From NCBI GenBank assembly GCA_918797485.1, contig CAKKNE010000004.1, positions 806,001-870,000 on the forward strand: a stretch of 64,000 nucleotides of DNA. Direction: 5' to 3'. Both the position numbers and the translations under genes were made by a program. Positions 23,781-55,840 of this stretch are shown piece by piece; position 1 is the stretch's first letter, and each line of letters starts with the position of its first letter. The notes under the pieces were generated by a model. The model saw nothing but the letters and a program-made list of their open reading frames with translations. It did not search any database and was not told the origin of the DNA. The stretch comes from Pelagomonas calceolata (Eukaryota > Sar > Pelagophyceae > Pelagomonadales > Pelagomonadaceae).

Positions 23781-26700
23781 TCACACCTCGCCCGTCTTGG
23801 GCGGCGGCGGCGGCTGATCAGCGGCGGCCGCGGGGGGCTTGGCGGGCGCGGTCCGCCACGGCCCGTCGTATGCCGCCTCGGCGGCGCGCGCGCCGGCGGC
23901 GTCCTTGAAGACCACCATCGCGGCGTTGCCGCTGCCGAGGCCGACGTTCAGCACGGGCGCGAGCGCCTGGAACGTCTCACGCAGCGTGTCCTCCGTCGGC
24001 CGTGCGGCGCCGCGCGGCCACGACACCTTGAGAATGCAGGCCGGGTCGTAGGACGCCGGCGTCGGGCGCGCTGTCGGTTTCGCCTCGGGGTACGGCCAGG
24101 GCGGCAGCGACTGGCCGCCCGGGTAGGCGGCCGGCTTGGACATGTCGCTGAGCTCCAATGCGCCGCCGGCGGGTCGCGGCGGCGCCTTTTGGACCTCGAG
24201 CTCGACGTCGACCTCGACGTTCCTTTCGAAGGTGTCCTGGTCTTCTTTGTTCGTTTCGTGAGTCTCGACGTCGATGGCGTCGTAGTTCGCCCGGGCGGCG
24301 TCGTCCCACGTCGGTTGTCTCTGATTCGCCTCGATCTGAGCAGTTTTCTGGCGATGGTAGCGATGGTACGCGTAGTAACCGATGGCGGCGACGGCCAGCA
24401 AGAAGACGGCACCGGCGGCCAGCCCGCCGCCCGACGCTGCCGCAGTTTGCTCGTTCTCATCTTGCATTTGCTGGAGCATGTCGTACAGTACTTGAAGGTC
24501 GACTGGCTCTTCGCTGGAAGTCTTCTTCCACGACACGTCGAAGGTCATGCTGTGTGATTCGGGGCCCCGGGCCGGCTTCGACCAGGAGGACGTGCCTATG
24601 TCCCAAATTGGGTATTCGACTGCAATCTCGCCGTACGACCTCGAAGCAGGGTTCTCGTCCATGCTTGTCTGGTACTGGTACACCTCCTGGATGCCGTCAT
24701 CGTCTGGATCCTCGCAATCCGCGTAGAGTTCGAGCTGGATCTTCGAGTACTTGTAGCACTGATCTGGCATGTCGTCGTTCCGCGCGACGAAGATGTGAAC
24801 CTCGGACTGTCCGTACGGAATCGGGTCAATAACCAGGCCGTCTCCGTCCCGCATATTTAGGTTGGTTAGAGATACCGCACCCATCTCGAGCGCGCCCATG
24901 TCGCCCTCAGGACACTCGTCGCCGGCATCCGTTTGTTTCCCCGAGTACCACCACGTCGTGCCGCCGTTGGCCGCGCGGAGCCAGTACCGCACGCCAGCTC
25001 GCCAAGGCGATCTGTTCTGAAGCTGCACGGAGAAGAAGGCGGTCTCGCCGGGTTCCAGGTCTTTGCAGCCTTCGGTTGCGCACTGCGGCGTGATGCTAAT
25101 GATGCTGACCCCGCTGTCCCGCCGTGTCGTGCCCGTCTCACCGGGGCACGACGAGAAGCCCCCCAAGGTCGTGAAAATGGGCGTGCCGTAGGTCGCATCC
25201 ATCGCGACCTGGACGGCAAACACGTCCCTCACGTTGTCATCTTTAAGGGAAACAGCTACGGTGTGCGTGTGTCCGGTCTCCTTGTTGGCGGACCGCGACA
25301 TGCTCACCGAAAATGAATCTGTTTCTGCGTGACCCCACGTACCACAGCCCTGGATGCCGAGCTGCAGGCGGCGGCGACACCCGCCGCCTTCGGGGGGGCC
25401 CTCGTGTTCGGGCGTGTTGATCTTCTGCGCGGCCGTGAGAATCTCATTCATTTTATCCTTGGTGGCTTGGTTCACTGGGAGTTTCCGTCGCCCCTGCTCG
25501 GGCGCAGCCGCCGCCTCCTCCACCAGCTTCCGCCGTTTCTCCGCGAGCGCCTCGGGCGTCACCTCGAGCAGCTTCTTGGACACGGCGTGCACGGGACCGC
25601 TCGTCGGGTACGCGTAGCCGGCCAAGGACACGAGGCCACTGCTTGAACGAGACTCGTCGGTCAGGCGCCGGCCGATCTGAAAACCAAAACTACCGTCGTA
25701 GTTCCAGCCGCCCTCTAACGACCCATCCGTGGTCACGGACACATCGGACCCGCGCGCCTCCGCGACGTCCCACGAGAAGTCGACGCCCGTCGAGCCGGAG
25801 AACGTGAGGAATCTTTCCGTGTCGCTGAGGAAGTTTAACGCGCTCAGATAATGAGCTCCGCTCATGGTCGTTCCGATGCCGGGCACCGTACCGTCTCGCT
25901 TGCAGAACGTCTTCACAGACTCGATGTCAGTCTCAAAGCCGCACACGCCGAGGAGCGTCTGGACAAGGTCCACTTTCTCTCCGATGTTTTGGTAAGCGGT
26001 GCACAGAGGATGAAGATTGGTGGGATCTATCTTGCTCGTTGCCACGGCGCAAGCTTTTGCTGCTTCCGTGACGCTATCACTCACCTTGCCGACCGTGTCC
26101 TCGATATATTTGTGCCCGTCAAATCCTGCAGATTTTTCCTTAATATCGTCGGTGACCCCTCCGTCTTCAACTCCCCCATCAGGTATCACAGACTGCATGT
26201 CCTCGCCACGCTTGTGCCTGTTGAGGTTCTCAATCCCCCGCGCGACGAAGTCCTTGACTTCGGAGGACTGCGCGTCGCTTAGGTCGTTTAGGTCTTTGTG
26301 AAACTTTGTAAAGTCCGTGTGCAAACCGTCCATTACCGTCTGAAGCTGTGCGGCGACGCTCGTCTTCTCGGTTGCCCGGTAGGCTGTGAGCACTTTCTCC
26401 CAATTAGTTAGCTGTGTTTGCAGTTTCGTAGCGTCCATGCCCTCACCTGATATTTCCATGTCTCCATTACCTATGTCCCGAACCGCTTCGCCCAAACGCT
26501 CGATCGTCTTCTCGATCTCGTAGACCGTCATGACGTACGTCGTGATCCTCTCAGGTATGAACTCGACCGTCTGCCTTCCGGCGAGACAGATCTCACCGTT
26601 TCCATTTTTCCCCTCTCCCTCTGGTGGGTCTCTGTAGACCTCTATGGCCGAGATGAAGCGCAGGTTGGCGCCGCCACCAATAATAACATCGGACGGCTGG

Positions 26701-29700
26701 CCCGCCAGGTATGGCGAGTCAGAAGTGGTGATGGCAATTCCAAAGGAGATGCCGATGTCAAAGTGTGACGATGATCCGCGGCTGACGGTAATGCTAGTAC
26801 TATCTGACTGACCTCCTCCATGGTTGGTTCCAATACCCACGCCGTTGAAAATGACCCCGGGCGGCGCAGTTTTGAAACCGCCCTGAATGCCTCCAGAGGC
26901 GCTCCATTGGAACGTCTTGCCCAACGTTGCGGCGTGCGCGCCCTCGATGGCCATGGACGTCGAGATTGTTGACCCTTCGACGAGCGTGGCCGTCGACGCG
27001 CCGCCCGGCGGGTCGCGGAGGACCGAGAAGATCAGACCCTCCACGGCCGTCGTCCAGACCTGAGGAACCTCCTCAGCGATCGATCCCAGTATCAGCACGT
27101 GGCGCTCGAACAAAATCCTGGCGTTGTCGAACGCCCGCGTGAACTCCACGCTGATCTTCTTCGAGAAGGGCGCGAAGGGGTTGGGTTCGCCGGCCGTCAT
27201 GAAATGCGTGAACTCGAGGATGGATCCATCGCTCGACTCGGAGCAGGCGGTACTCGGGGTGATACTTGGGCAGCTTTCCTCGTAGTCCTCGGGGGTCACG
27301 CCGTCGGCGACATGGATCTTGATCTGGTGGTCGTCCGACGGCAGGTTCACACTAGGCGGTGGGTTATTCTCGTAGCCGTTACATTTGCCGCCCTCATCCC
27401 ACGGATAAATACCGTCGGCACCACAATTTGGCTCGCGCTCCACGAGCTCGAACTTGAACTCCACGACGTCGCCCTTGTTCAAGATCGAGTCCTCGTTGCT
27501 GGTACAGGCCTCGCCGTAAATGTTAATAGTGTCGTCCGTTTCAGGGTCATCCGTGAGAGGTTCGGGGGGCGAGAGCAGGAGGTCCTCGATTTTAGATCCG
27601 GCCTTTACTGCATTGAGACAGAGCGGCGAAATGATTTCGAACTGAACCAAGGCCGCCGCCGCGCTATTGTGGGCGAGATCCCTGCCAAAGTTTCGATCTA
27701 CCGGCAGCTCGTCTACGTAGGTGTAGTCCATGGTCGCGCAGGGTCTCTCTGCGCTCCCGGATACGTCGGGGATCTTCGCGCGGCAGCCGCGGAGCATAAT
27801 TTCCTCAGCGTTCACGGTGTCATCATCGTCACCAGACACGAAAAGCGTTCCTACCATCTCATCGCGCGGCGTCGGACCGTCAGGGTCGCCATCGCAGTCG
27901 TGAACCACGAGCTCTTGGTCGGCATTAGATAAAGTGCCGGGCGGGTAGTAATACTTCGGCTCGTCGACCTCGTCCGCCTCGAGCACGCGCACGTCGAACG
28001 CGGCGGCTCCGAGCCAGAAGGCGGCCTCGCCCCGCAGTATCCAGGCCGGCAGCTCCCACCCACAGCGCGCGACGCTCGCGACGACCGGCACGCCATTCAC
28101 GTACGAGGCCGGCTCTCGATTCGCGCCCGCGACGAGTCTCGCGGAGAGGCTCTGCATACTCGTGTCGAGGAAGTGGACCTCGGCATTTTCGTCTGCCTTG
28201 TAGTTGAACGTCGGCGCCTGGCCACCCGATGGATTGACCGAGAATTGCGTTGCTTGGGCGGCCGAAAACGCGTGCGTGACCGAGAACGTGTGCGCGACGG
28301 AGTTGAAGCTACAGAGGTAGTCCTTTACACACTGATCCGAAGGCCTCGGATCGTCGTTGAACTGAAACCCTATAGTATCATCCCAACCCGTAATAGAGAT
28401 CCAGGATCCCGCCTGGTAGCTTTCCGACGCAGATTTCCCTCCGTTCGGCTCATTGTAATATGTTGATGAGGCAGTCTCTGCCTCTCGCAGAAACCACGGC
28501 GACCCCGCGACGCTCGTCCAGCCAGCGACGACGGCCCCCGCGTCGTCGCTATTCATCGCGTACGTAATGGTTTCGGGATAAGTCCCATGCTGCTCGCGGT
28601 AGACGCCGACGAGGTTGGGCAAATGCTCTTTGCCCGTGATGCTTTGGTACTTATCACGCACGGCCTTTGCGTGCTCGTAGCTCCGCGGGACCCAGATGTC
28701 GTAGCCAGCGGGGCAGGAGTTGTCGTCGAAGTGACCACATGTCAGAGTACCATCTATCACCTCGAGGACGTCTACAAACTGCGTCCCCGTCGTGTCCGTG
28801 AATTGGACGCAGTGAAGCGAGCGGCCTTCGTGTGTGGACGTGCCAACAGCCGTGCACTCGGGCGGAGAAGCGCCGCCGTAGTATTCTTTCAGGCTGAGCG
28901 TCACAATCTCACCGTTGAAGACGGCGGTCGAGTACGTGCCGTCGTCCTGCAGCTCCACGTCTTCGACGGCTCCCGAAGCGCGCGTGATCTCGAGCTTTGC
29001 GCCGTCGACGGAACAGATGCACTCCTCTGTGTCCGCCCTCGTGTAGATGGCTGCGACCGAGATGGCGGTATCGGGGGCGAAGCCGGATCCGGTATCTTCC
29101 TGCCAAGTACCAGATACTGCCTCAAGGTCCTGGGCCGAGTCAGCCACATGTATCGCTGCAGAAGCACTTCCACAGCCGTCACTTCCGATGTGCCATTTTC
29201 CAGTTTTGTACCAAATATACTGATCGCTGCTGCAGTCGACGCACTCGTAGTAGGGCACATCCTCGCACAGCCCGTTCTGCCGGTACGTCCCGTGCGTGTC
29301 TTGATGATTGGAGGTTCCTGAGACAAGGAAAGAGTCTAACAGGAACTGGAACTTCGTGTGAGGGCAGTCCTCAGCGAAGTAAGCGGCACCGAAGCCGGCG
29401 TGCGACACGGTGCCCGAGATGACGACGGCCGTCTCGTCGATGAAGGTCAAGGGGGCCTCCTCCAGGTGGCGCAAGATCGCTTGCTGGGTTGGGGGCTCGA
29501 AGTCGTGTTCCAGTATTCCGAGGACCTTGATCGGATCGCCCCAGATCCGGCTGGTAGCAGAAGTTGGGTCAGTAGAAGAGCCGGTCAAGGTAGCCCAACT
29601 GGATCCAGCGTAATTGTTCGTAGTAATACAGGTAGATTCGTCGTTGATAATCCAAACTTTATCCGCGGAACGCCATAGGTAGCCACCGCAATCCCTGCAC

Positions 29701-32700
29701 TCGTAGCGGGGCATGCCGTTGCACAGAGCTATGCTGTTGCTGCTGCTATCAGGAACGGGGAAGTATGCCCCGTTCCTGTCCAGCGAGTCGTCGAATCCCG
29801 AGACCCTCAATGGGCTCTCTTGGTCGTAGTCCGCGCCCTCCTTTTTATCACTTAACTTCTCGACGTCCACGCGGAAGTGCTGCGTTTTACTAAACCAATT
29901 GCTATCCTGGACGCGCACCCTTAGCACCGCTTCTCCGTAGGCATCTGTCTCTTCCTCGAGGAATTCCCTGTATGTCTCATCGACGTCCACTTTGCCGCTG
30001 CCATCATCTTTCATGCGCGACAGCTTCACGGTGACTTTCTCGACTGGTCCACCTCCCTCGGCCACGACGGAGACCCGAACGTCGCCAAACCACGTCACGA
30101 TGAAGCCGCTGGTTGTGGACGAAGAAGCCCCGCCCTGGAGTCGCCGCGCGCGCCTCCGGGAGCCGCTGCTCGATAGGGCGAATTTGTCCCCGCTCACGCC
30201 GACCTTGTCCTTGATCTCGGCGCCAGCCGCGTCGAGCGGCACGATGGCGTAGCCGACCCCAAGGCCTGGCTCTGATCCTGTCGTGGCGTCGCGGAAATCC
30301 AGATAGTTGTGCGTGAGCCCACACGTAGAAGAAGAGACTTCGCGCAGGAGCCGGGCCGACGTGTCCTCAGCGAACGGCGCGGAAGGGTCGTATTTGTAGA
30401 TGCGGTAGCCGCTCGCCACCGTCGACGTGTCGAGCCAGCTAATCGAGACGCCTTCCTTGCCCAGCATGCGCGGGAATATATCCATGGGCGTTCCGTCGTA
30501 CTGGAGGCCCGTCGTGCAGCGCGTCGTTGTCGTGATGCCCTCCGTATCTAAGTCGCAAACTGGAATCTCCTTCAAGCAGATGTCCGAGAGCGTGACTTTG
30601 GCGGCGTCGTACCACGGATCCGCGACGTACACGGCAGCGTTCTCCCGAGCAGGGGTCGAGCCCCCGGTAGAGGTGGCGAGCTTAACGCCATCGACGTACA
30701 GGACCAGCTTGCTCTTATCGAGAACGACCTTGATGTCGTAGGTCCTTCCGGCCGTGAAACCGAAGGAGGTGTCGGTGGATGCACCACAGCAAGTGTCATG
30801 GTTTACGTACAGTCTGTTGTCGTTTGGTTCAAACCAGATGCCAGGCATGCGGTGGCCATTTTCGTCGCCGATGTGAAAGACGGACTGCCACGCGCCCGTG
30901 ATGCTCCAGTCACCCGCCAGCTCCATCGTGAACGAGAGCACGTAGTCCTCGAACGTGACATCGGCAGTCCCCACCTTGTTACCCTTGGAAGCGGTGTATG
31001 GACCGGGCAGACTCAGCGCGCACTCGGCCTGGCCCACACCAGGACAGAACTTCGTCTCGACGCAGTAGCTGTGCTTGCTGATGGCGAGCGCCTCGACCTC
31101 GCGAAAGATAACGTCGGAGATCGTCGCTTTTACTGGCGCGTACCAAGGACCGCCCACATATAGCACGCCGCCGTCCGCGGGCGCACTCGTCGAGGTTCCT
31201 TGTGTAGAGACTTCCAGCAGGCCGTCCACGTAAACGCTGAGCAACGAGTCAATATTGGTGATTCTGATCTCATAAGATTCGCCCGCCTTGAACACAGTAG
31301 TCGCATATGCATTTGTCTCCCCACTGTTTTCGTTGCTACGGGCAACATACAAGCGACCCACGTCCGAAAACCAGAGACCGGGGTAGCGTAGCCCGTTCGC
31401 CTCGTCCTTGCCGGTCAGATGGATAATAGAAATGGTAGATCCGAAAACCTCATCTTGATCCATGGCGATGGTGAGCGAGAGCTCGTAGTTGGCCGGTGTC
31501 GGCACCGTGCCCAGGTTGCAGCCGCCGTCGGAACACATGTTACCAGAATTATCTCCGCAACCGGAACCAACCGCGGCGTCCAACGTGCACCAGCTGCCGC
31601 ACGGGCCACCGGCAGTGTACGAGGCGTCGTTGTAGCAGATCCCTGGAATACTTACGTGTGGGTACGGGAAGCTCGCGGGGCACCCGCATGCGCCGACGTC
31701 GATCGGCGCGCTGTACTCGCTTGGCCATAAATTAACGACGAGCTCGCCGTCTGGCGATTCGACGCAGCTTCCCTCGGAGGTAATCTCACCCGCGGCCGTG
31801 CAGGGGCTTCGATGGTGAGACTCTACCTTGTAGTCGGGACCGAGTTGGAACTTGAACTCGCACTCGGAGTCGAATTCGCCGCGGCAGTCGTTAGAATCTA
31901 CGTTGCTGTCTCCACTCGAGACGTCGTCATCCCAGCTATCGTACGCAGAGAGCGCCTGGCCGTTGAAGAAGGCGCACTGCTGGAAGATGATCTTCTCGCC
32001 GCGGTCGACGGTCCACTCGAGTTCTGGTTTAGCCTGATTCTGGGTTGTACATTCGGTGTTCGTAGAGAGGGGATTCGGATAGGTCGCCGTCATCGCCGAG
32101 ATTTCGCCGGAGCCGCTCGGCTTATCGTGGTAGTCCTTCGTGCCCTGCGTCTCCAACCGGTCGAGCTCATCCTGGATCATGTCCGTGATGGTCACGTCGT
32201 TCTCGTCCAGCTTGACGCCATCTCTCGACCAGATGTGCGACACCTTCAAAGGAATCGCCATGCCACCGTCCGCTATCGCCCTCCTTGCCTGCGCGGACAG
32301 TGAGTCACCGACGAACGCGGCCTCGGTTAATAATTGCATTGATAGACGCTGGCCCTCGCCTCGGTGACGCTTAAATGATTGTCCGAATTCACGTCGAATG
32401 CACGGAACGCTGCCGAGATGCCCGAGAAGGCCTCGTTCCTCGAGAGCACTCGCGCGTGCCGCGGCCATTGCACTTCTAATACAAGAAATCCGAGCGACAC
32501 CGCTGGCTTCGTGCCCGCGCATTCAGCTTGATCGCAGTTCGTGCCGGTTTGGCCGGGTGCGCAATCGCACTCGTTTTCGCTCGTTAAGCCGCTCTGGTTC
32601 GGGTCCCAAAGACTCTCAAGGTAGCCAGCGTAGCCGACGTCGCCGCACTTCAAGCATTCGCCGGCTTGGCCTCCCGTCGCGTACGTTCCCGCGGGACAGA

Positions 32701-33654
32701 TCGAGCAAGAGTTGGGTTGACCTGCTGTCGAGGACGTGCCCGCGGGGCACGGCTGGCACGTGCCGCCCTGCACCGAAAATTCTCCCGCGGCGCAAGTCAC
32801 GCAGGCCGTGTGCGCCGAGTTAGACGTCTGGCCCGCGGGGCAGGCGGCGCACGCAGTTCCCGCGCTCGAGATGTAGCCCGCGGGGCAGTCTTGACACCCG
32901 CTTTTGGCTGAGTTCGACGTCTGGCCCGCGGCACATATTCCGCACGAGGCCCATGCCTCTCCAGAGTAGTATCCCGTGGCGCATGCAGGACATCCAGTGT
33001 TCCTCGCATGAGGAGAGTAAGTCCCCGCAGGGCAGTTCGTGCAGCCGCCATTGGCACTCCCGGAAGAGTACTTGCCCGCGCCGCATTGACCGCACGAACT
33101 CCACGCCGCTTCGGAGTACCATCCCGCGCCGCACAAGTGAACGCACGAGGTTTGGGATCCGGCACTTGGTTGATACGTCCCGGCTCCGCATGCAGTAGTC
33201 GCTCCGTTGTTGTAGATATTACTATAATATCCTGCTGGAGCCGATAGGCATGCGCCGAGGGAGGTTGTCCAGCTGTAATAATCGCAGCAATAGCCGTGAC
33301 CGTAACCTGGCGTGTGGCTTCCGGGTCTACCGGGCGGGCAATACTGGCCATGATAATGACAACTCCATCCGCTACACCTGCGTCGTTTCGAGGTTAAGTC
33401 TGCCGACGGACGCGCGAGCACGATCGGTCGGAACACCGGTTTGATTTCTACACTGCGCGATACGACGACGCGACACCATTGTTGGCGTCTCCTGCTGCGA
33501 ACCCCGCCGCCGCCAGCAGCGCGCCGCCGACGCGCCCGGCTGCGGACCCGCGCGCCGCGAGCACCAGCGCCGCGCTCCCGGCTGCCCTGGGGTGCTGGCA
33601 GGCTGCCGCGAGCACCAGCGCGGCGGCGAGCGGGGCAGCCTTCTCTTTTACCAT
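23781..33654 (-). CDS. Giant receptor-like protein A: Cys-rich repeats, EF-hand, LamG domains, TM, cytoplasmic RRM-like domain
   Basis: Exons 33654..33452, 33377..32348 and 32288..23781, 3246 aa. A signal peptide (MVKEKAAPLAAALVLAAA) leads GCC2/GCC3-type repeats (CPAGTYS, CPAGQTSNSA) to ~residue 340. An EGF-like CDCAPGQTGTNCDQ and an EF-hand loop (DVNSDNHLSVTE, ~397) follow, then two LamG/concanavalin-like domains (~675-810 and ~858-988; LYVDGVKLATS, VYVDGLLEVST), an FN3-like segment, and long ectodomain regions including LRDPPGGASTATLVEGST. A helix (GAVFLLAVAAIGYYAYH, ~3035) crosses the membrane. The cytoplasmic tail ends in an RRM-like domain (~3163-3226: ILKVSW ... AAMVVFKDAAGARAAEAAY), close in pattern to the DNAJC17 RRM. 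A surface adhesion or recognition role is inference. Paralogue of gene B. Splice sites were inferred from frame and comparison with B. Confidence 0.8.
32289..32347 (-). other. Short 59-nt intron in gene A
   Basis: Needed to join the EF-hand exon to the next frame, which continues RAIADGGMAIPLKV and aligns with the unbroken HALRDGGMAVPFEV of gene B. GTCTATC...CCGCGCAG keeps the frame. A GCCCTC word at both ends may be a target-duplication trace, so it may be a decayed introner absent from gene B. Confidence 0.55.
33378..33455 (-). mobile_element. Introner in gene A, first intron
   Basis: A 78-bp element between CGCTACAC and CGCGATAC (6 of 8 identical). On the gene strand it starts CAGTGTAGAAATCAAACC, close to the CTGTGTGGAAATCA terminus of the intact introner at 55300. 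Donor GTAGAAATC and acceptor ACGCAG give a 74-nt intron (33378-33451) and keep the frame between the signal-peptide exon and the first Cys-rich repeat. Confidence 0.75.
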
Positions 33655-33862
33655 CGGGCGTGCTCTCGTCGTGTCAGGTGCTGCCGCGCGACGCGGTACG
33701 CCCTCTCGGAATTTGGCTCTCTCTCGGCCGGCCGCTGGGCGCGGCGAGCCGATCCGCGCAGATCGCGCCGCGCAAGACCGCTCCGGGAAGGCCCGGACGA
33801 GTCCCACGCAACCCTCGGGAGGGATCTCGCGCGGCGCTCGCGACGGCCGCCGCGCGTGCCAC

Positions 33863-33929
33863 CTAGAACATGATCGACATGGCGTTGCCCCGCCCGCCCT
33901 TGGGCGCCACGAGCCGGCCCTTGATGAAG
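33863..33929 (-). pseudogene. Duplicated C-terminal fragment of the PA28 gene (copy next to gene A)
   Basis: The minus strand reads GRLVAPKGGRGNAMSIMF then a stop, the last ~18 codons of the PA28 gene at 46468-47175 (GKLVAPKGEGGNAMSMF). Nothing upstream of it codes for PA28. It sits 209 bp upstream of the gene A start, the same arrangement as PA28 and the array at the right end. Confidence 0.75.
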
Positions 33930-34248
33930 TATATTTATATTTTAATGTTGCTTTGCTTAGGGCTACTTAGCACCGTTTGTTCTCGGCGCGGGCGAAGCAG
34001 GCGATACGAACCAGCACAGTTGCGACTGTGACCGATGCACCTTTAGCGACTTCCGGGCGGCGCTGGGCGTGTGCGTGCGGCCGCTCAGCAGCGGCGAGAC
34101 GTAGAAACTGTTAATCTCTTTATACTAGGGGATACTACACCGGGGGCGGCCCGGGTGCAACGGGAGCTGATGGGGAAAGGGAGTCGCTGTTTGCCGATGT
34201 ACCGTGGCGATACAACGAGGGGAGTCCAGCGAGCTTATAAGGAGGCCA
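33930..34248. repeat. Duplicated flank between genes A and B
   Basis: Together with 33766-33929 this matches 45751-46253 at roughly nine bases in ten (for example tatttatattttaatgttgc and cgagacgtagaaactgttaa are identical). It carries the gene B 3' flank followed by the PA28 tail and the gene A promoter. No separate gene is seen. Confidence 0.75.
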
Positions 34249-37200
34249 TCACACCTCGCCCGTCTTGGGCGGCGGCGGCGGCTGATCAGCGGCGGCCGCG
34301 GGGGGCTTGGCGGGCGCGGTCCGCCACGGCCCGTCGTAGGCGGCCTCGGCCGCGCGCGCGCCGGCGGCGTCCTTGAACACCACCATCGCGGCGTTGCCGC
34401 TGCCGAGACCGACGTTGAGCACGGGCGCGAGCGCCGCGAAGGTCTCGCGCAGCGTGTCCTCCGTCGGCCGGGCGGCGTCGCGCGGCCACGACACCTTGAG
34501 AATGCAGGCCGGGTCGTAGGACGCCGGCGTCGGTCTCGTCTCGGGGTACGGCCACGGGGGCAGAGACTGGCCGCCCGGATAGGCGGAGGGCTGTGGCGGC
34601 GCCTTTTGGACCTCGAGCTCGACGTCGACCTCGACGTTCCTTTCGAAGGTGTCCTGGTCTTCTTTGTTCGTTTCGTGAGTCTCGACGTCGATGGCGTCGT
34701 AGTTGGCCCGGGCGGCGTCGTCCCACGTCGGCTGTCTCTGAGCCATCTCGACCTGAGCAATTTTCTGATGGTGGCGATGGTACATGTAGTAACCGATGGC
34801 GGCGACGGCCAGCAAGAATACCGCGCCGACGGCCAGCCCGCTGCCCGACGCCGCCGCCGTTTCCTCGTTTTCTTCTTGCATTTGTCGGACCATTTCGAAT
34901 AGCTCTTGTTGATTCTCGAGTAGTTGAGCGAGCTGGTCTTTTTCGCCAGCACCTTCCTTCCAGGACACGTCGAAGGTCTTCCTAGACGTGTCGGGGCCGT
35001 TGGCCTTCGACGCGTCCGTGAAAGTGTAGAGGTCACAGTGTTTGTATGGGGCCCATGGGTCCTTCGCCAACAACTGTTCCCGTTCCGTGGGCATGGCGGT
35101 TGGAGCGAAGCTGACATGATCGTCCTCTTCTTTCTCTTTTTCTGGAAATGTTAGATCATCCTTCTTCGTGAGGAGGTGGGTGGTCGTTTGGCGCGTCTTG
35201 TAGTCTTTGTGGTCTGCGGGTTTGGTGACGTCGTAAGTCACTAAGTCGTCCACCAGGCAATCGCAGCCGTTCTGGCAGCGGCATTGCCCGGTCACCTCCT
35301 CCCAGTCGATCGCCTTGAGCTCAAAGGGCCCGTCGACTGGCGAGCACTTAAACTCCTCACCCTTGTCATCCGTCTGTTGTATGAACGAGATCGGGCAGCC
35401 TTGCGCGGCTGCAGACTCCATCGAGGGAACCTTCTCGATCTTGTTAAGGACCTCGATTTTTTCATTACACTTCGACCAGCAACTCGCTGGAGACAGCGTG
35501 CAGTCCACGGCCAGGTTCAGGTCCGAGTAGCACCATTTACCGTCGCCATGATACGTGGAAGCGGGAGTGGTGCCTGCGCCGGCACCAGTAGTAGCAACGA
35601 TGCCATCAAGATCAACGATGCCCGCGGCAGGACAGTCTGTTCCAGCCGAATCTTCGTCAGCACATTCAGCAACTAAGGTGATGCCGGGGTCCAAACCGAC
35701 GGGCCGCCCGACAAACTTCGGGTGGACCACGCTAACAGCGCCATTCTCAGGATCCATGTGCGCCTGGTACTGGTACACGTCCTGATTGTTGGCCCAGTCC
35801 GTGTCCTCGCACACCGCAACGAGCTCGAGCTCGAGGTCTGAGTACGAGCGGCACTGCGGCGTGAAGTCGCGTCGAGACACGAGAAGCCGAATCTCGGACT
35901 GGCCGTAGGGAAGCGGCGCGAGTTCTTCGCCAGCGCCGTTGCGGAGGTCACCGGAATCGGAGCCAAGAGGGTTGATCAGCAAGGAACCGAGGTCGCCGGG
36001 GGGGCACGCCTCTTCAACAAGCCGGGCGTACTTGCCCGAATCCCACGCCGTCGAGGCGCCGTTCACCGCGCGGAGCAAGTATCTCACGCTCGTCACCCAG
36101 GGCGAGAGATTTTGGAGCACCACGGAGATAATGGCGTCCTGGCCGGGCTCGAGATCTTTGCACTCGCACGTCAGCTTGCTTTTGCAAAGGGCCTCGCCAG
36201 TATCGGCGCTTTCTTTGATATCAGCATCGGAGACACACAGAGGCTTGATCTCCTTGATCGTCACGCGCGAGTCGCGCCGCGTCGTGGCCGTCTCGCCGGG
36301 GCACGACGAGCGGCCTCCCATTGTCGTGAATATGGGTGTGCCGTAGGTGGAGTCCTGCGAAATCTTCACGGCGAAGACGTCCTGCGCGTTTCCGTCCTTC
36401 AGGGAGACGGCGACGGAGTGCGTGTGCTCGGCCTCCTTGTTCGCGGCGCGTCCCAACGATACCTCGAATGAAGAGGATGTCCCGCCTTCGAAATCGGCGC
36501 ACGCCGTGATGCCGAGGCGACGGCCTCCTTCGTCGGACATTTTGGTCAAGCGCCGACGGCATGGGTTGCTGTCGTCGGGTTCATTCATCTTGTTCGCAGC
36601 CGCATTTACAGCGGCTACATCAAGCTTGTCCTTTAGCCGCCGCCTCTCCTCGAGCGCCTCCGGCGTCACCTCCAGCAGCTTTTTGGACACGGCCAGCACT
36701 TTTCCAGTCGTAGGGTAGGCATAGCCGGGCACGCCTTTATCGGTGGCCTCTAGGCGCCGCCGCCCGATATTGGCACCGAACCCAAGGCTCCCGCCTATTG
36801 CGTCGTTGACGGCCCCGTCGTGCGTCGAAGAGAGTTCCTGGCCGCGAGACTGCGAGACATCCCAGCTGAGTTCGATGCCCGTGGTCCCAGAGAACGTGAT
36901 GAAGTGCGTGGTGTCGGATAGCGCGTCGAAAGCGCTGATGTCCTCGTAGTTGCCCGTATCCGCCCGATATGGGCCTTTCTTGCAGAACCTGTGCGAAGAT
37001 CAAACCTGAGGTCGAATGGGCCCGCGAAGAAAATGATTGAATTCAAAAGCACTGTGCAGAACGCTTCTACCGCGTTCAGTCCGTCCTTTAAGTCGCAAAT
37101 GCCGAACAGTGAAGACTTGAGCTCGAGCTTCTCATGGATCTCCTTGTAGACACTGCACAGCCGGGCCCCTCCGCCGGGCTCCGCGAGTTCAACGCTAGCG

Positions 37201-40200
37201 ATGCAGTCGCTATATACAGAATTAACTCGGTCCAAAACGTCGTTCTCGTAGAGCTCTAGCCGAGGGCGGTCCGCGACATCCTCCATCGTTTCCGCATCGC
37301 TTAGCGCTGTATCGCCCACCGGTCCCAGATTATTCTGCTCCCGATGGTAGATTAACTTGTGCTTTTCAAGTTCGTTTAGACCATGTGACAAAAAGTCAGA
37401 GAACTGATCTGCCTCAAAACCACCCGTGGTTGCAGCCTGTAGAAAGCTTTGAAAGTTTTCGTGGATGATGTCCAACTCGTCCTTGAGCTGCTCGGCGACT
37501 GACAGCGCCTGGTCCTTGATTGTCGCGGCTCTGTAGTTCGCGAGCACGGTCCGCCAGTTCTCGATCTGCTTTACGAGGTCGTCGCGCGGGTCGGGCCCGC
37601 CGCCCTTCGCCTCGATCTTTGTGTTCGGATCGGTCAGCGCCGCACCGATGCGCTCGATCGTCTTCTCGATCTCGTAGACGCTCATGACCCACGTGCTGAT
37701 CTGCTCGGGTAGGAACTCCAGGGCAGTGAGGCCGCCAAGACAGAGGCCGCCAGTAACGTCGGGATCCACCTTCGCATAGATCTCGATGGCCGAGATGAAG
37801 CGCAGGTTCGCGCCGCCGCCGATGATCACGTCGGACGGCTGGCCCGCGATGTAGGGCGAGTCGGACGTGCTGATGCTGACGGAGAAACTGATGCCGATGT
37901 CGAAATGCCGCGAAGTTGAACGCGAGACGGTCACGTCCGTGGGCGTGTGCGCGTAGGAAAAGCCGGCGTTAAGGCCAACTGAGGCAACGTTTTTAATCAC
38001 AAACGCCCCGACGCCCAATCCTCCTTTCACAGCGACTCCAGCGCCAACCGAAGCGCCAAACTCAAAAGAGTCTTCCAGCTGGGCGGCGTGCGCGCCTTCG
38101 ATGGCCATGGACGTCGAGATGGTGGAGCCTTCGACAAGTGTGGCCGTCGACTCGCCGCCCGGCGGGTCGCGGATGATCGAGAAAATCAGCGTCGGATTCG
38201 TGGCTGCTGTCCAGACCTGCGGCACCTCTTCTGGAATCGACCCAACAACCAGCACGTGGCGCACGAACAGAATCTTGGCGTTGTCGAACGCCCGAGTAAA
38301 CTCCACGCTCAGCTCGTGCGAGAACGGCGCGAACGGGTTCGGCTTGCCCGCCGTCATGGTGTGTTTTAATGTCGCGGTTCCAGCATATTCGCCGCTGTCC
38401 CCGATTCCGCTGACACCGTCGGCGACTCGAATCTTGATCTGGCGGTCCGTCGGTAGGCTATCATGCGCCGGCAGGGAAACGTCATTGTAGCTGCTACATA
38501 TATCCCACGGATAAAGACCGCTGCCTGGACACGTGGGCTCGCGCTCCACGAGCTTGAACTCTAGCTCCACAGCGTCGCCCTCGCGGAAGATTGCGCCCGT
38601 GTTCGTGGTGCAAGCTTTGCCATACAGTCCATCCTCCTCGGGCTCGGGTAATTCCGACAGGAGCAGCATGCTCTCCGGGCCGTCTATAGGGTAAGCAGCG
38701 GTATCCCGGAGAAGTGGTTTTCCGGCATTGTCTACACCAGGGTCGATGAGCTTCTGGACAATCAAATCGGTCACCGCATCGGCTGCTTTTCCGCTTGACG
38801 ACACAGTTACAGAGTCCAGGCAGAGCGGCGAAATGATCTCGAAGTCAACCGGCTCGAGGTTGGTAAGGTCCGAGAGGTCCTTGTCAAAGTTTCGAGTCAC
38901 CGGCAGCTCGTCCACGTAGGTGTGGTCCATGGTTGCACAGGGAAGCCTCTCGGTCTGGCACTTTTTATTGGCGGGAGTTTCACCTTCGCCGCACTCTCGC
39001 ACCTCGGGGATCTTCGCGCGGCAGCCGCGGAGCATAATATCTTCAGTACTCTGGGTGCCACTGGCATCGGTCACGAAGAGTGTTCCGACCATGTCGTCGC
39101 GAGATAGCGTATCCTCATCGCAGTCGGGGACCGCTAACTCCTGGCCAGCATTAGACAGATCACTGAGCGGGTAGTAGTACGCCGAGTTGTCGACCTCGTC
39201 CGCGCCAAGCGTGCGAACCTTGACCGCGGCGGCCCCGACATTGCCAAAGTCGGCGACGCCCCCCAGCGTCCAAACTGGTTTCTCCCAGCCGCAGCGCGCT
39301 ACGCTCGCGACCACCGGCAGGCCGTTCACGTAGGATGCCGGGGCCGGGGCTGCGCCGTGGACGAGCCTGGCAGAGAGGCTCCGGATACTATCGTCGACGA
39401 AGTGCACCACGGCGTCTTGGGTCGCCATGTACGTAAAGCTCGGCAAGACGCCGTCCTGCTTGCTAATCAGGGAGTCCCCCGATTCCTGGGTGACCGAGAA
39501 CGCGTGGAGGCTCACGCGGCTACAGAGGTAGTCGGTGAAACACTGTTCCGGACTCTGGCCCGGCAAAATCGGAGCGTCGTCAAACTGAAACCCTAGAGTA
39601 TCATCCCAACCCGTGATAGTGATCCAGGAGCCCGCCTGGTAGTTCCCTGCAGATGTCCCGCCGTCCGGCTCAGTGTAGTATCCTGATGCCTCAGCTTCTC
39701 GCAGGAACCACGGCGACCCTGCGACGCTCCGCCAGCCGGCGGCGACGGCTCCCGAGTCGTCGCTGTTCATCGCATATGTAATGGCTTCGGAATGAGCCCC
39801 ATCCTGCTCGCGGTACACGCCGACGAGTTTTTTGAAATTGCTATTAATGTTCGTATCATCCCAGATCGCCTTTGCGTGCTCGTAGCTCCGGGGGACCCAG
39901 ATGTCGTAGCCAGCGGGACAAGAATTAACGTCGGTGTGATCACAGGTCGGAGTACCTGTCACCGCGACAACGTCGACTAGGGATTTGTCCGGCAGCTCGA
40001 TGCAGTGAAGTTTCCCGAGGCTACTATCATCTGGGTCATAGTCTCGGCTTTCGACTTTCTCGCAGTCCGAATTCACACCAACGCCGTAGTATCTGCCCAG
40101 GTAGAGCGTCACCTGCTCGTCCTCGAGAACTGCAGTCGCGAACCTTCCGTCATTTACTGTCACTTCTTCGTGGTCTCCAGATGCGCGTATGATGAACACC

Positions 40201-43200
40201 TTCGCGCCGTCGACGGGGCACATGCACTCGCTGGAGTCCTCGCTCTTCGTGTGTGGACAGTCGGCGGCGAAGTAATTGGCGTCAAGGCCGGCGTGCGAGA
40301 CGGTACCGGAGATGATGTTGACCGTCGTGTCAGTGAACTCAAAGGTGGTCTCGCCGAGGTGCTTCACGGACAAGTCCTTGGAAGGGGGCGAGAAGCCGTG
40401 AATTACATCGACATTGTTCGCGTTCTTTGACGTCTTCTCGACCTCCACGCGGAAGTGCTGCGTGAGGGTAGTCCACGACGTATCTTCGACGCGAATATTT
40501 AGCAGCGCTTCCCCGTACTCGTCCGTTTGCGCAGTGACGAAGCCCATCTGATAATTCTGGTCGATAGCGTTGTTGACCAAGTGGGCAACCTTCACGGTAA
40601 CGTCCTCGACTGGCCCGCCGCCCTCGGCTTCCACCTTCACCCGGATATCGCCAAACCACGTCACAATAAAGCCACTTGTCGTGGACGAGGCCGACGCCGA
40701 CGAAGAACTGAGTCGTCGGCGCCTCTCGGAGGACAACGACGCGGAGCTGCCCCCGCTCACGCCGGCCTTGTCCTTGACCTCTTTGCCGGCGTCGTCGAGC
40801 GGCACGATTGCGTAGCCCACTTGTAGGCCCGGCTCCGAACCGGTCGTCACGTCGCGGAAATCTATATAGTTGTGCGTGAGACCGCATGCAGAAGTGGAGA
40901 TCTCCTTCAGGAGCCGGGCCGACGTGTCCGTGGCGAACGGCACAGAAGCATCGTACTTGTAGACGCGGTAGCCCGTCGCGACTGTCGACGTGTCGAGCCA
41001 GCTGATGGACACGCCTTCGTTGCCCAGCATGCGCGGAAAAATATCTGCAGGCGTCCCGTCGTACTGAAGGCCGGTCGTGCAGCGCGTGACCGTGAGAGCT
41101 GGGTCGGCGAGAGTCGCGTCGCAGACCGCAGTGCCGCTGGGGCAAAACTTCGTCTCGACGCAGTAGCTCTGCTTGCTGATGGGCAGGACTTCGAAAGAGC
41201 TAGTTGTCGAGAAGCCCCTCACGTACGCGTAGGTGTTGCTGTATGCCATAAAGCCGAGGTAAGTCGTCGTCCCAAATGCGGAACAATAAGATCTGCTAGA
41301 CGTAAGGACATCCACGCCGTCGACCGTCCACGCATCCAGGTACACACAATTGTTCCTCGTCGCAAAGACCAAGCGCCACGTGTGCCACTGCGTTGGGTCT
41401 GTCACGTCTGCCGGACCGTACCACGTCTGGCCTGCCACAGAGTTATCCCACTGATAGTCGCCAAGGCCATACCTCCCTCCATCAGAGATCCACCAAAGAT
41501 CAGGTGTCTCCCGACCCGTCGAGCCCAACGACGAACGAAACGGCTCGAAGAACCAATGCGGCGTTATGCTCGACTGCTGTCCAGTCACGGGTGTCGTACA
41601 GTCGGCCTCGTAGCAACCGCGGGTCTCGAACTCGACGACGAGGGAGCCTTCGAAGTCCCATGTGACGGGAACGTCGAGCGAGCATGCCCCGAGGGTCTTC
41701 ACTGAGAGCTCGCTCGCCGTGACGGAGCACCCCGAGGTGCTGCCGATAGCAGAGGCGAGGTTGACCGGAGCCGCAATAGCCGCTTGCTGGTGGTAGCTTT
41801 TGACCTGGTAGGAGTCTGGCAGATAGAACTCGAATTCGCAGACTTGAGCTCCGTCTGTCCCGCTGCAGTCCGTAGAATCGACATTGCTTCTCCCGCTCGA
41901 GACGTACTCGTCTAGATTGGCGAGAATGTTGCTGCTTTTTGAGAAGAATCGGCGTAGATACGCGTAGGTGCCGCCGTATGTGGCTAGTCCGAGGTATGTT
42001 GTTTTGCCATACGCGGAACAATACTTGCGAGTGGCCGTAAGGACATCTACGCCGTCGACCGACCAAGCATCTAGGTACACACAATTGTTCCTCGTCGTAA
42101 AAACAATGCGCCACGTGTGCCACTGCGTCGGGTCTGCCACGTTGTTTGGGCCGTAGTTAGTCCTGTCTGTCGCAGAGTCATCCCAAGAATAGTCACCAAG
42201 GCCATAGGTAGCTGTATCTGAGATCCACCAGAGATCAGGCTGCTCGCGGCCCGTCGAGCCTAACGACGAACGGAACGGCTCGAAGAACCAATGCGGTAAA
42301 ATGTTCGTCTGGCCTCCGGTCACGGAAGTCGTACAGGCTTCCTCGCGGCAGCCGCGGGTCTCGAACTCGACGACGAGGGAGCCTTCGAAGTCCCACGTGA
42401 CCGGCACGTCGAGCGAACATCCATCATTGCCCGTAAGCAAGAGCTCGCCGTCACTCGTGACGGAGCACCCCGAGCTGGTGCCGATGGACGCCTCTAGATC
42501 GAGCTCCGTGTCCCGAGAGGGCGCCTCACCGTTAAAGAAGGCACACTGCTGGAAGATGGTGTTGTCGCCGCGGTCGACGGTCCACTCAAGGAGCGGTTGC
42601 TCCTCGTGCTGGTCCTCACACTCATCCTCCGTAGTGAGCGGATTGGGATAGGTCGCCGTCATTGTATCGATTGCGCCGGCGCTCATCGAACGTTCGTAGA
42701 ATTCCTTCGTGCCCTGCGCCTCCAACCGCGCGAGCTCGTCCTGGATCATGTCCGTAATAGTCACGTCACCCCTGCACGTTTCTGCTGCCACCCACGTCGA
42801 ACCAACGCAGCATTTACCGCTCGAGGGACAGTACTGGCCTTCTACGGAGCAGTCCTCGGCGCAGGAGTCAGCAGCCTCGTGGATTTCCACGCGCGCCCCG
42901 TTTTCCACGCGGGACCAAACGTGGGACACCTCAAAAGGAACCGCCATGCCGCCGTCCCGCAGCGCATGCCGTGCCTCGTCGACGCTCAGACGATTGTCCG
43001 AGTTCGCGTCGAACGCGCGGAACGCGGCCGAGATGCCCGAGAAGGCTTCGTTTCTCGAGAGCATTCGCGCGTGCCGCGGCCACTGCACCTCCAAAAGGAG
43101 GAAGCCGAGCGACACCGCCGGCGTAGTGGTCGCGCAGGTCTCCTGCTCGCAGTTCGTACCGGTCCTGCTCAGGGCGCACTCGCACTTATCCCCACTTGTT

Positions 43201-45542
43201 ATGCCGCTCTGTTCCACGTCCCAGAGGCTCTGGTCCCAGACGTCCTCCACGCACATCACCTTATCAAACTGGAAAGTTTGCTTCGATGAACCAGTGCCCC
43301 ACCATGGGTTAGAAACTGCGATAGTTGGAATGCCGTCGCAGCCGGTAGCGTGGTGCGTGGCGCAAAAAGTGTACCCGGATTCCAGTGAGCCCATTTGGAG
43401 CCATTGGTTGTCGTTGACTTCGAAAGAGCTAGTTGTCGAGAAGCCCCTCACGTACGCGTAGGTGTTGCTGTATGCCATAAAGCCGAGGTAAGTCGTCGTC
43501 CCAAATGCGGAACAATAAGATCTGCTAGACGTAAGGACATCCACGCCGTCGACCGTCCACGCATCCAGGTACACACAATTGTTCCTCGTCGCAAAGACCA
43601 AGCGCCACGTGTGCCACTGCGTTGGGTCTGCCACGTCTGCCGGACCGTACCACGTCTGGTCTGTCGCAGAGTTATCCCACTGATAGTCGCCAAGGCCATA
43701 CCTCCCTCCATCAGAGATCCACCAAAGATCAGGTGTCTCCCGACCCGTCGAGCCCAACGACGAACGAAACGGCTCGAAGAACCAATGCGGCGTTATGCTC
43801 GACTGCTGTCCAGTCACGGGTGTCGTACAGTCGGCCTCGTAGCAACCGCGGGTCTCGAACTCGACGACGAGGGAGCCTTCGTTCCACGTGACGGGAACGT
43901 CGAGCGAGCATGCCCCGAGGGTCTTCACTGAGAGCTCGCCCGCCGTGACGGAGCACCCCGAGGTGCTGCCGATAGCAGAGGCGAGGTTGACCGGAGCCTT
44001 GATAGGTGCTTCAGCATTGCAATCCGAAGAGTAGGGAATCCAAGCGTCGGTCTGGTCGACCGCACCTGTCCGCGAGGGGTCTTCCCCGTTTGGACATAGG
44101 TCGCTGTACGTTGCGAGCGAAAGTCCGAGCGCCGCGCACGTCGCCTTCTGTCCTTCCCACGAGTAGTCCCCCGATGTTATTTGCGTCCAAAGTGTGCGGC
44201 GAGGCTCGCCGCACTTTGTGCATTCGGTGGCGCCTCCCACCGAGTACGTTCCCGCGGGACAGAGCGTGCACTGGCCTTGCCCTGGCTCAACGAACGTACC
44301 GGCGGGACACTGCGTGCACGGCCCATGCGGACCAACGATTCCCGAGGCAAATCGGCGTAGATACGCGTAGGTGCCCCCCCATGTAGCTAGTCCGAGGTAC
44401 GTTGTCTTGCCGAACGCGGAACAATAAGAGCGGGTAAACGTGATGATCTCCGCGCCGTCGACCGTCCACTCGTCCAGGTACACGCAGTTTTCCCTCGCCG
44501 CAAAAACAAAGCGCCACGTGTGCCACTGTGTAGGATCCAGTCCGTTTGGACCGTAGTTGGTCCTGTCTGTCGCAGAGTTATCCCACTGGTAGTCGCCAAG
44601 GCCATCACCATTTGAGAGCCACCAAAGATCGGGCGGCTCGCGACCCGTCGAGCCTAATGCAGTACGGAACGGCTCGAAGAACCAATGCGGCGCAGTGGCC
44701 GACCCGACTGGGTCACATTCCTCATCGAGGCAGCCCTTCGTCTCGAACTCGACGACAAGGGAGCCTTCAAAGTTCCAGGTGATCGGCACGTCGAGCGAAC
44801 ATCCATCATTTCCCGTCAGCAAGAGCTCGCCGTCACCCGTAACGGAGCACTCCGAGCTGCTGCTTTCTATAGCTGCCTCCAAATTGATCTCCGCGCCTCT
44901 AAACGCATCGTCGCCCTGTCCTGCGGCCGAAAACGACCCGGCGTCGCACTGCGTGCACGAACTTGCCCCGACCCCTGAATACGTGCCCGCGGGACAAGTC
45001 GTGCACAAGTCGGCTCCCGCCGCCGCATACGTGCCCGCGGGACAGGACGTGCACGAGCCGGCCGCAGCCCCGGCGTACGTGCCGGCGTCGCACGGCGTGC
45101 ACTCGTCGGCTCCCTCCGCCGAGTACGTGCCAGCGGAGCATGTTTCGCACTCGCAGTGTGTGGCCGCATATTCGCCTGCTGCGCATGTCACCTTATCATT
45201 GAAAGGATTGCAACCCCTGCGTGGTACCGACACGGTTTCTGGCGAAGCGCGAGGGCGAGCTACTGTACACACTGCATCGCGCGTCGTCGTGCCATCGTCA
45301 AGGCGTCGTTGGTCCTTGAGCCCGACGTCGGGCGCGCCACGCATTTTGTTCCTCCACGGCCCGAGCCACCAGCGCCCAGCGGCGCCTTCAGACTCGTCTA
45401 CCTGCCCCGCCGCCGCGAACTCCGCTCCCGCCAGCAGCGCGCCGGCGCGCCAGGCCGGGCTGCCCGCGAGCGCCGAGGCCGAGACGGCGGAAGAGGCCGC
45501 CACCAGCGCGGCGACGGCGAGGGCAGCCCTTGCTCTTTCCAT
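34249..45542 (-). CDS. Giant receptor-like protein B: four repeated ectodomain modules, EF-hand, TM, cytoplasmic RRM-like domain
   Basis: Exons 45542..37063 and 36988..34249, 3739 aa. A signal peptide (MERARAALAVAALVAAS) leads Cys-rich CxxCPAGTY repeats (~120-205). A ~190-residue module follows four times (~214-404, 515-708, 1015-1205, 1255-1448; hallmark DFEGSLVVEFETRGC, PHWFFEPFRSSLGSTGRE, CVYLDAWTVDGVD). Between modules 2 and 3 lie the CECALSRTGTNCEQ EGF-like motif and an EF-hand (DANSDNRLSVDE, ~841). The later ectodomain, the TM helix (~3540, GAVFLLAVAAIGYYMYH) and the RRM-like tail (~3651-3716) align with gene A. The last ~130 residues are nearly identical to A except for a short deletion. 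The start is chosen at the signal peptide; the frame is open for 369 bp further upstream, through the duplicated PA28 tail. Probably a cell-surface recognition protein. Confidence 0.82.
36989..37054 (-). mobile_element. 66-bp introner with perfect 8-bp target duplication in gene B
   Basis: The element lies between two copies of TGCAGAAC (36981-36988 and 37055-37062). The left end CTGTGCGAAGATCAAAC resembles the intact introner terminus CTGTGTGGAAATCA. On the gene strand the intron can start at the GT of the first GTTCTGCA copy and end at CGCACAG, removing 74 nt (36989-37062) and restoring EAFCKKGPY exactly. Gene A has no intron here (TFCKRDG). Confidence 0.85.
41188..41772 (-). repeat. Ectodomain module 4 of gene B, near-identical to module 2
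   Basis: 585 bp that match 43417-43998 with only about eight substitutions and one codon indel (WDFEG versus WNEG). Modules 1 and 3 are clearly more diverged. Points to recent conversion or duplication within the gene. Confidence 0.85.
43417..43998 (-). repeat. Ectodomain module 2 of gene B, near-identical to module 4
   Basis: 582-bp partner of 41188-41772. Identity stops sharply at both ends (after the TTCGAAAGAGC word on one side and GACCGGAGCC on the other), as expected for a duplicated or converted block. Confidence 0.85.
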
Positions 45543-45750
45543 CGTTAAGCCCTTTTCTGATTTGCTCCTCCCAAGGTGCTGGCGCGTGACCGCGCACCGA
45601 GACCTTTCTACTCGCGCACGACCAAGCTCGTCAATGCCTGGAAGGTGCTGCCGTGCTGCCGACAGACCGCGGCCCGGTGCGCGGCTGCCTCCCGCCCGAG
45701 AGCAGCGCAGGCGCTGGCTCAAATTCCGGCAGGCGGCGGGATCGCCGCGC

Positions 45751-46253
45751 CGCGCAAGACCGCTCCGGGGAGGCCCGGACGAGTCCCACGCATCTCTCGG
45801 GAGGGATCTCGCGCGGCGCTCGCGACGGCCGCCGCGCGCGCCACGTAAACGAGAGGGGCAGCGACACCTAGAACATGATCGACATGGCGTTGCCTCGCCC
45901 TCGGGCGCCACGAGCCTGTCCTTGATGAAGTATATTTATATTTTAATGTTGCTTTGCTTAGGGCTACTTAGCACCGTTTGTTCTCGGCGCGGGCGAAGCA
46001 GGTGGATACGAACTGTGACTGTGGCCGATGCACCTTTAGCGACTTCTGGGCGGCTGGGCGTGTGCGTGCGGCCGCTCAGCAGCGGCGAGACGTAGAAACT
46101 GTTAATCTCTTTATACTAGTAGGAGATGCTACACCGGGGGCGGCCCGGGTGCAACGGGAGCTGATGGGGAAGGGGAGTCGCTGTTACGGAACGGCGGCCG
46201 ATACACCGTAGCGATGCACCGGGGGCGAGTCCAGCGAGCTTATAAGGAGGCCA
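45751..46253. repeat. Duplicated flank upstream of gene B
   Basis: Partner of 33766-34248. It holds the gene B promoter side (with 45543-45750), a degraded PA28 tail and the 3' flank of a lost third paralogue. No intact gene. Confidence 0.75.
45868..45930 (-). pseudogene. Duplicated C-terminal fragment of the PA28 gene (copy next to gene B)
   Basis: Matches the PA28 3' end (gacatggcgttgcc, gggcgccacgagc) but has small deletions, so the LVAPKG-type frame is no longer continuous. It lies 325 bp upstream of the gene B start. Confidence 0.7.
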
Positions 46254-46318
46254 TCACACCTCGCCCGTCTTGGGTGGCGGCGGCGGCTGATCGGCGGCGG
46301 CCGAGGGGGGCTTAGCCG
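46254..46318 (-). pseudogene. 3'-end remnant of a third giant paralogue (C)
   Basis: The minus strand reads KPPSAAADQPPPPPKTGEV then a stop, the same last residues as genes A and B. Similarity ends at ~46318, and the sequence passes directly into a copy of the promoter-side flank (gccgcgcaagagc). The body of the gene is absent, so only its two ends remain. Confidence 0.8.
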
Positions 46319-46467
46319 ATCCGGTGCCGCGCAAGAGCACTACGGGGCGACCCCGAGGAATCCCACGCACCCCTCTGTAGACATCGCGCGCCCGGGCGCG
46401 CCGCCGGACCGCGCGCGCCCGGCGCGACGAGCTAGCACGAGCACTTTAGACGAGGACGCGAGGACAC

Positions 46468-47175: not shown

Positions 47176-47410
47176 TCATTTGTTATCTGGGTGCGCAGCG
47201 CGACCACCCATCGATTGCGGGCGTCGACGGCGTGGAGGTCACGACTCAGCCGGAAGGCGCCGCGTCTGTGATCTATGCACCGTGGCTTGCGCGGACGCGT
47301 CCTTGAGCTGAGCAAACATCCTTTCAGTCGCGCTGCTTGCGGCTCAAAAACAACTGCTAGCCTAGCTCCAAATGGCGGAAAAAAAAGCCAGGCGGCCGGC
47401 GCCTCGCGCG

Positions 47411-47432
47411 AGCTAGCGTAGTGCGACACTAG
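47411..47432. promoter_or_regulatory. Recurrent intergenic motif, reverse orientation
   Basis: GCTAGCGTAGTGCGACACTAGC, 236 bp upstream of the PA28 start. The two CTAGC ends and the ACACTAG half are conserved. 47433-48229 contains no convincing gene, only low-complexity Arg-rich frames. Confidence 0.45.
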
Positions 47433-54647: not shown

Positions 54648-54701
54648 GCTCCTTGTGCTTCCGTTGCGGTGCTGCTTCGCGGCGCGCCTGCTGTCGATTT
54701 A

Positions 54702-55839: not shown

Positions 55840-55840
55840 C

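Follow-up and report, generated by a model that had tools for sequence, protein, structure and literature searches.

Background

On their cytosolic side, receptors mostly carry a kinase, adaptor motifs or a disordered segment, and domains of the RNA-recognition motif (RRM) type are already known on membrane proteins such as MAN1 and ERD4. In a stretch of 64,000 nucleotides of the Pelagomonas calceolata genome (contig CAKKNE010000004.1, positions 806,001 to 870,000; hereafter the window), we found two genes, A and B, which encode giant, apparently single-pass type I surface proteins ending in a cytosolic C-terminal domain with a predicted RRM fold. A fold best known from RNA-binding proteins is in this way placed, under strong constraint, on the inner side of these giant proteins. 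The alga has been described as ranking among the most abundant oceanic eukaryotes (PMC9481584). With A and B it can be tested directly whether an RRM fold that lacks the RNA-stacking residues works as the docking module of a receptor.

Among the described systems, MAN1 (LEMD3) is a membrane protein whose C-terminal non-canonical RRM, a UHM domain, is described as binding signalling proteins, the SMADs, with Trp855 near beta-4 helping to bind SMAD2 (PMC6294489). MAN1 has two transmembrane (TM) helices, LEM and winged-helix domains and a location in the inner nuclear membrane, whereas A and B have one TM helix, a giant ectodomain, a putative plasma-membrane location and G-P-W-R in place of R-X-F. 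A search for a LEM domain in the main open reading frame (ORF) of A and in two pieces of B gave no match at E <= 1, and besides a signal-like start one strong TM segment was seen. The plant membrane protein ERD4 is akin to the OSCA channels. It resembles A and B, by description only, in its modelled RRM-like folds with non-canonical RNP motifs, but it is a DUF221 transmembrane protein with two such units that is placed in the chloroplast (PMC3303787). The surface protein ADAM15 reaches the mRNA machinery by another route: its tail, some 100 residues long, binds PABP in the proline-rich part and is not described as an RRM in the available part of the source (PMC6161846). Among open-licence papers, no report was found of a giant type I surface receptor with a cytosolic RRM of its own.

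Results and discussion

Gene models and membrane topology

Genes A and B are long neighbouring genes, both on the minus strand, located where a preliminary description of this DNA had placed them. That description had proposed a giant surface protein with a TM helix and a cytosolic RRM fold, an architecture which is supported by the gene models, hydropathy, an AlphaFold2 model and fold matches. The features are given below; P0001 is a protein from a different source that is identical to A.

23781-~33654, minus strand: gene A, main ORF plus upstream exons reaching ~33654
23781..32522, minus strand: gene A main ORF (2913 aa) with ectodomain, TM and cytosolic tail with RRM
32360..33654, minus strand: gene A 5' region with a candidate signal-peptide exon (ATG 33654) and Cys-rich repeats
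32289-32359, minus strand: gene A second intron, putative GC-AG ends, the sequence across the junction being fixed by P0001
24372..24425, minus strand: gene A TM segment GLAAGAVFLLAVAAIGYY, from hydropathy
24084..24128, minus strand: gene A cytosolic motif AYPGGQSLPPWPYPE
23838..24038, minus strand: gene A RRM-fold domain (predicted), 67 aa
23784..23855, minus strand: gene A C-terminal extension RTAPAKPPAAAADQPPPPPKTGEV
34249-45542, minus strand: gene B, two exons, 3739 aa
37063..45542, minus strand: gene B exon 1 with a signal-peptide-like start, ephrin-receptor-like repeats and ectodomain
36989-37062, minus strand: gene B intron, 74 nt, GT-AG
34249..36988, minus strand: gene B exon 2 with the ectodomain end, TM, cytosolic tail with RRM, and stop
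34786..34839, minus strand: gene B TM segment
34540..34584, minus strand: gene B cytosolic motif AYPGGQSLPPWPYPE
34306..34506, minus strand: gene B RRM-fold domain (predicted), 67 aa, 97% identical to that of A

The intron of gene B is one of 11 that keep the frame and was picked since it gives the sequence of the homologues; the long gene was correctly recognized earlier, its end at residue 3716 being replaced by a length of 3739 aa. For the first exon of gene A, 72 two-intron models keep the frame, in which the second intron would be GC-AG. The late ectodomain, the TM segment and the RRM lie in a single ORF in A and in a single exon in B, and the same fusion recurs in P0001 and in the divergent protein P0002.

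In gene B, the strongest hydropathy segment (2.07) is the TM segment near the C-terminus, the second (1.95) is a signal-peptide-like N-terminal start and a third, weaker one (1.60) lies inside the ectodomain, while the A ORF and P0002 each show a single segment that reaches 1.6. The residues ahead of the TM segment are acidic and those behind it basic (HRYHRQK / HRHHQK), so that hydropathy gives one TM segment with its positive side toward the C-terminus in A, P0002 and B, consistent with a surface location, presumably in the plasma membrane, and a cytosolic C-terminus. The signal peptide previously proposed for both proteins has a candidate in the hydrophobic start of B; in A it comes down to a candidate exon, whose ATG at 33654 begins a sequence that reads like a signal peptide. 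Pfam matches over the cut-off were Laminin_G_3 in A (32.0 bits, cut-off 27.6) and an ephrin-receptor-like domain in B (30.6 bits, cut-off 23.1); EF-hand matches in B stayed below it. A model of the ectodomain core (991 aa, 6 sequences) reached a mean pLDDT of 30.5, too low to assign a fold.

Fold of the tail domain

The AlphaFold2 model of the tail domain is RRM-like, with a block of pLDDT 80-92 over residues 11-80 of 97, strands at 14-18, 41-46, 51-56 and 74-77 and helices at 28-36 and 59-68, and the matches listed in a fold search with it are by title overwhelmingly RRMs. Neither OSCA/ERD4 nor MAN1 appears by name among these listed matches, which carries no evidential weight. The 199-aa tail of A returned no row for the Pfam profile RRM_1, the two rows that it did return being under their cut-offs (Lin-8, 19.5 bits against 34.1; DUF4523, 13.9 against 27), and single-sequence searches of the tail (199 aa and 97 aa) against solved structures gave no match, so that it is the family profile and the model that carry the RRM assignment. 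The tail has homologues that score over the RRM_1 cut-off (63% identity to the third domain of a protein of the same genome, L020), and the related domain of the Aureococcus protein P0004 gave 13 weak matches to RRM proteins of solved structure (best E 0.016). Together these data support a predicted RRM fold for the C-terminal domain of A and B.

The domain had earlier been likened most closely to the RRM of DNAJC17. The structure 2d9o, which we take to be that RRM, shares the fold, but it came 41st in the fold list and was not among the best 60 of 179 profile matches. DNAJC17 is a nuclear J-domain protein, and neither the A ORF nor either piece of B gave a DnaJ match at E <= 1. As neither profile nor fold search singles it out, we rejected DNAJC17 as the nearest relative; the likeness is one of pattern only.

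RNA-contact residues

Aromatic residues at RNP2-2, RNP1-3 and RNP1-5 are absent at each of the three positions from all nine family domains scored (A; L020 domains 1-3; L022 domain 1; L021 domains 1-4), L021 and L022 being further proteins of the same genome. From the 13 aligned rows, B and P0002 were left out as near copies of A, and the second domain of L022 and the fifth of L021 as divergent. Control RRMs from the same genome have these aromatics, read by eye, in 8/8, 7/8 and 5/8 cases; the controls are the eight best-scoring RRM_1 loci, chosen by score and therefore biased to canonical domains, and two of them (L004 and L005) are identical. Judged by these positions, the tail domain appears to have lost the usual RNA-stacking residues and to be a non-canonical RRM.

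Other residues are kept instead. A Trp directly after beta-1 is present in 13/13 rows of the first alignment and 16/16 of the second, and a Trp before beta-4 (Y-x-G-P-W or alike) in 13/16 family domains, with Met or Leu in the remaining three; this count includes near copies and leaves out two divergent rows; as neither of them has the second Trp, the overall count is 13/18. UHM motifs are defined by R-X-F. This mark is absent between helix 2 and beta-4 of the tail domain, where A and B have G-P-W-R, and the second conserved Trp sits about where UHM domains carry R-X-F and MAN1 carries Trp855, the residues compared being those of RBM39 and MAN1 (PMC6294489). The Trp in the PPWPYPE stretch of the same tail is, by its sequence, a candidate UHM-type ligand motif. 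Loops 1 and 5 each have a conserved Trp close by, in a spacing that differs from that in hnRNP F. The quasi-RRMs of the latter are described as binding G-tracts through loops 1, 3 and 5 and beta-4, not through the sheet (PMC4081072).

Kinship and origin of the tail domain

Of the relatives found, the closest to the tail domain of A is RRM 3 of L020, a RhoGAP-like protein encoded in the same genome:

G000:C3:3522771-3526004, ORF 3272-6505: L020, RhoGAP-RRM protein with three RRMs

Its counterpart P0003, from ENA, likewise has three RRMs and is 67% identical to L020. The third RRM of these two proteins is 63-64% identical to the tail of A (63% for L020; 63-66% when the domains of A and P0002 are both considered) and shares with the A tail the lead-in YDPA. 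They differ from the receptors in carrying three RRMs and a RhoGAP match, instead of one RRM on a receptor; this match lies just under the Pfam cut-off of 24.5 (22.4 bits in L020, 24.4 in P0003). P0004 from Aureococcus carries the domain family, aligns to the N-terminal region of L020 and keeps, as do L020 and P0003, a WLYRD stretch. The RRM_1 cut-off of 20.7 bits is passed by L020 (34.4), L021 (37.4) and P0004 (22.9) and not reached by L022 (20.2) and P0003 (16.2); L021 is also over the DUF4523 cut-off (28.4, cut-off 27). In the tree, the receptor domains, domain 3 of L020 and of P0003 and domain 1 of L022 are joined at 91/94. Apart from the receptors, the members of the tail-domain family found in this analysis sit in soluble-looking proteins, with no TM noted in those tested. 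Of the open-licence papers listed for a combination of RhoGAP and RRM, none had a title pointing to such a protein.

Further members of this Trp-marked family were seen in the genome, with at least four domains in L021 (ORF 2557-6231) and two in L022 (ORF 2858-4702), both of which also contain REAP...HHK-type stretches. At L072 (G000:C2:3644690-3644869 and downstream), one domain of this family precedes a long series of GAPFGQAP-type repeats that recall FG nucleoporins.

Homogenisation and selection in A and B

Synonymous divergence (dS) between A and B is 1.99 over the last 200 ectodomain residues (176 aligned codons; ratio of nonsynonymous to synonymous divergence, dN/dS, 0.39) and 1.03 over 459 ectodomain codons. 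It is 0.12 in the TM segment (38 codons; dN/dS 1.21 on few changes, 3 synonymous and 11 not), 0.19 in the juxtamembrane part (77 codons; dN/dS 0.12) and 0.22 in the RRM (61 codons; dN/dS 0.10). The C-terminal extension has no synonymous change, the last 24 residues are identical and the homology continues past the stop codons. Because dS drops together with it, the near-identity of TM and tail, previously taken as the best-conserved part and as a sign of function, is largely the outcome of gene conversion. The identity itself is real and the RRM of A and B is under purifying selection (9 synonymous and 3 nonsynonymous changes; Fisher p 0.00036).

In the ectodomain core, B is closer to P0002 (65%) than to A (53%; A-P0002 53%), yet in the tail, from YPGGQ onward, A and B are 97% identical (B-P0002 93%, A-P0002 91%). 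The A/B split therefore looks older than the split from P0002, with the tails homogenised later, and gene conversion between the A and B tails is the simplest reading. P0002 likely stems from a sister species, because P0003, which also comes from ENA, is 67% identical to L020; it could alternatively be a further paralogue, and tail searches of the genome show only A, B, a remnant, the domain kin and the TM protein L023.

Distribution of the RRM tail

Searches for relatives scored the best word-sharing candidates among proteins (7986 for the tail, 7984 for the ectodomain), so that relatives may be missed. The tail search gave P0001 and P0002; the ectodomain search gave six rows, namely these two and P0005, P0006, P0007 and P0008. 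P0005 stops before the TM segment and P0008 is a weak match (E 5.7e-4). In P0006 (Pelagophyceae sp. CCMP2097), a TM-like segment is followed by about 75 residues, and in the distant P0007 by a short tail; an RRM is seen at the C-termini of A, B and P0002 and in neither of these two. Since two distant homologues have the TM segment and no RRM, the RRM tail is probably a lineage-specific gain. In viral contigs, where near records may be missing, two stretches fit a pattern and neither encodes a relative.

A stretch like that of the receptor tails, SAYPGGASLPPSPYPETK, was observed in the tail of L023 (G000:C4:3104000-3113500, ORF 1770-6347), a TM protein with a Pro/Thr/Ser-rich part before its TM segment. 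The motif search in the genome (E <= 5) gave three places, A, B and L023, the last at E 5.3e-4.

Functional interpretation

The reading which we favour, at a rough probability of 0.45, is that of a protein-docking tail with partners shared with the RhoGAP-RRM protein, on a receptor that borrowed a non-canonical RRM. An ancestral receptor with a TM segment and a short tail would have acquired a copy of the domain, the probable donor being the RhoGAP-like protein or one of its relatives. Thereafter the tail would have changed very little, and gene conversion would have copied it between A and B, a case of probable domain capture followed by homogenisation between paralogues. The RRM would act as a protein-docking module, as does the RRM-type domain of MAN1, and partners of the RhoGAP-RRM protein, and with them Rho/cytoskeleton signalling, would thereby be linked with the receptor. 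Two roles were initially considered, RNA tethering and protein binding; the evidence points rather to the second, because the RNA-stacking aromatics are absent and the kin protein has a RhoGAP-like region. Several observations weigh against this view. The domain has a net charge of +2 and an isoelectric point of 9.1, compatible with RNA contact, and its two conserved Trp adjoin the loops by which quasi-RRMs contact RNA. The RhoGAP matches of L020 and P0003 fall below the Pfam cut-off, and none was obtained at E <= 0.01 for P0004, the more distant relative from Aureococcus. The tree resolves little, with one of 14 inner branches starred and the 91/94 clade unstarred and without resolution inside, so that the donor of the domain and the direction of transfer are inferred and not proven by it. 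P0006 and P0007 are predicted proteins with putative C-termini, and the protein partners and signalling role of the tail are likewise putative. The docking interpretation owes more to the RRM data than to the RhoGAP match.

A single RRM tends to bind RNA weakly, which speaks against a tail that tethers RNA at the plasma membrane. Such binding would have to use a surface other than the canonical one, namely the pair of Trp that closes beta-1 and precedes beta-4, and the conservation of this pair across the family, the basic domain and the loop-mediated binding of G-tracts described for hnRNP F (PMC4081072) are in its favour. Given that none of the nine domains is aromatic at any of the three RNP positions, that the kin protein is RhoGAP-like and that efforts to isolate bound RNA with DNAJC17, another RRM protein with a similar fold, reportedly failed (PMC13388955), we regard RNA tethering as rather unlikely. 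The tail might also be a trafficking or anchoring determinant in which the AYPGGQSLPPWPYPE motif and the poly-Pro C-terminus act and the RRM is mainly a folded spacer. The stretch YPGGQSLPPWPYPE is identical in A, B and P0002 although the preceding linker differs, the motif recurs in L023, and the last 24 residues of A and B are the same; purifying selection on the RRM itself and its 87-88% identity with the RRM of P0002 go beyond the need of a spacer and make this unlikely. Quite doubtful, too, is a composite view of lineage-specific giant receptors with an RRM from a RhoGAP-like scaffold, in which either the Trp pair would bind RNA or PPWPYPE would be the ligand of a switch, and a contact outside the cell would act straight on RNA or translation close to the membrane.

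That the identity of the tails would be a mere by-product of tandem duplication and gene conversion, the RRM having no special function, agrees with the low dS in TM and tail (0.12-0.22), the homology beyond the stop codon, a third 3'-end remnant upstream of gene B and the discordance between ectodomain and tail identities; it is very improbable in view of the dN/dS of 0.10 in the RRM and the 91-93% identity of the tail to that of P0002. Finally, gene B requires an intron and the first exon of A is ambiguous, which would leave room for a faulty gene model or assembly fusing a surface protein with an RRM gene. The fusion within one ORF of A (and one exon of B), its recurrence in P0001 and the presence of the same tail in the divergent P0002 argue against any splicing or assembly artefact, which we consider extremely unlikely.

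Other features of the window and genome

The third-copy remnant consists of the last ~20-23 codons, the stop and the 3' flank:

46191..46325, minus strand: third-copy remnant

No ectodomain was detected upstream of it. A tblastn search with A, B, P0002 and P0006 against the window at 1-23780 and 45543-64000 gave nothing at E 1e-3 and also missed this short remnant, so that small remnants could escape it. Elsewhere in the genome, pieces of the A ectodomain (within residues ~1214-1422) recur in other giant ORFs, at G000:C2:5250785 (5670 aa), C3:3804414-3811085 (4183 aa, several copies) and C4:4695360 (7126 aa).

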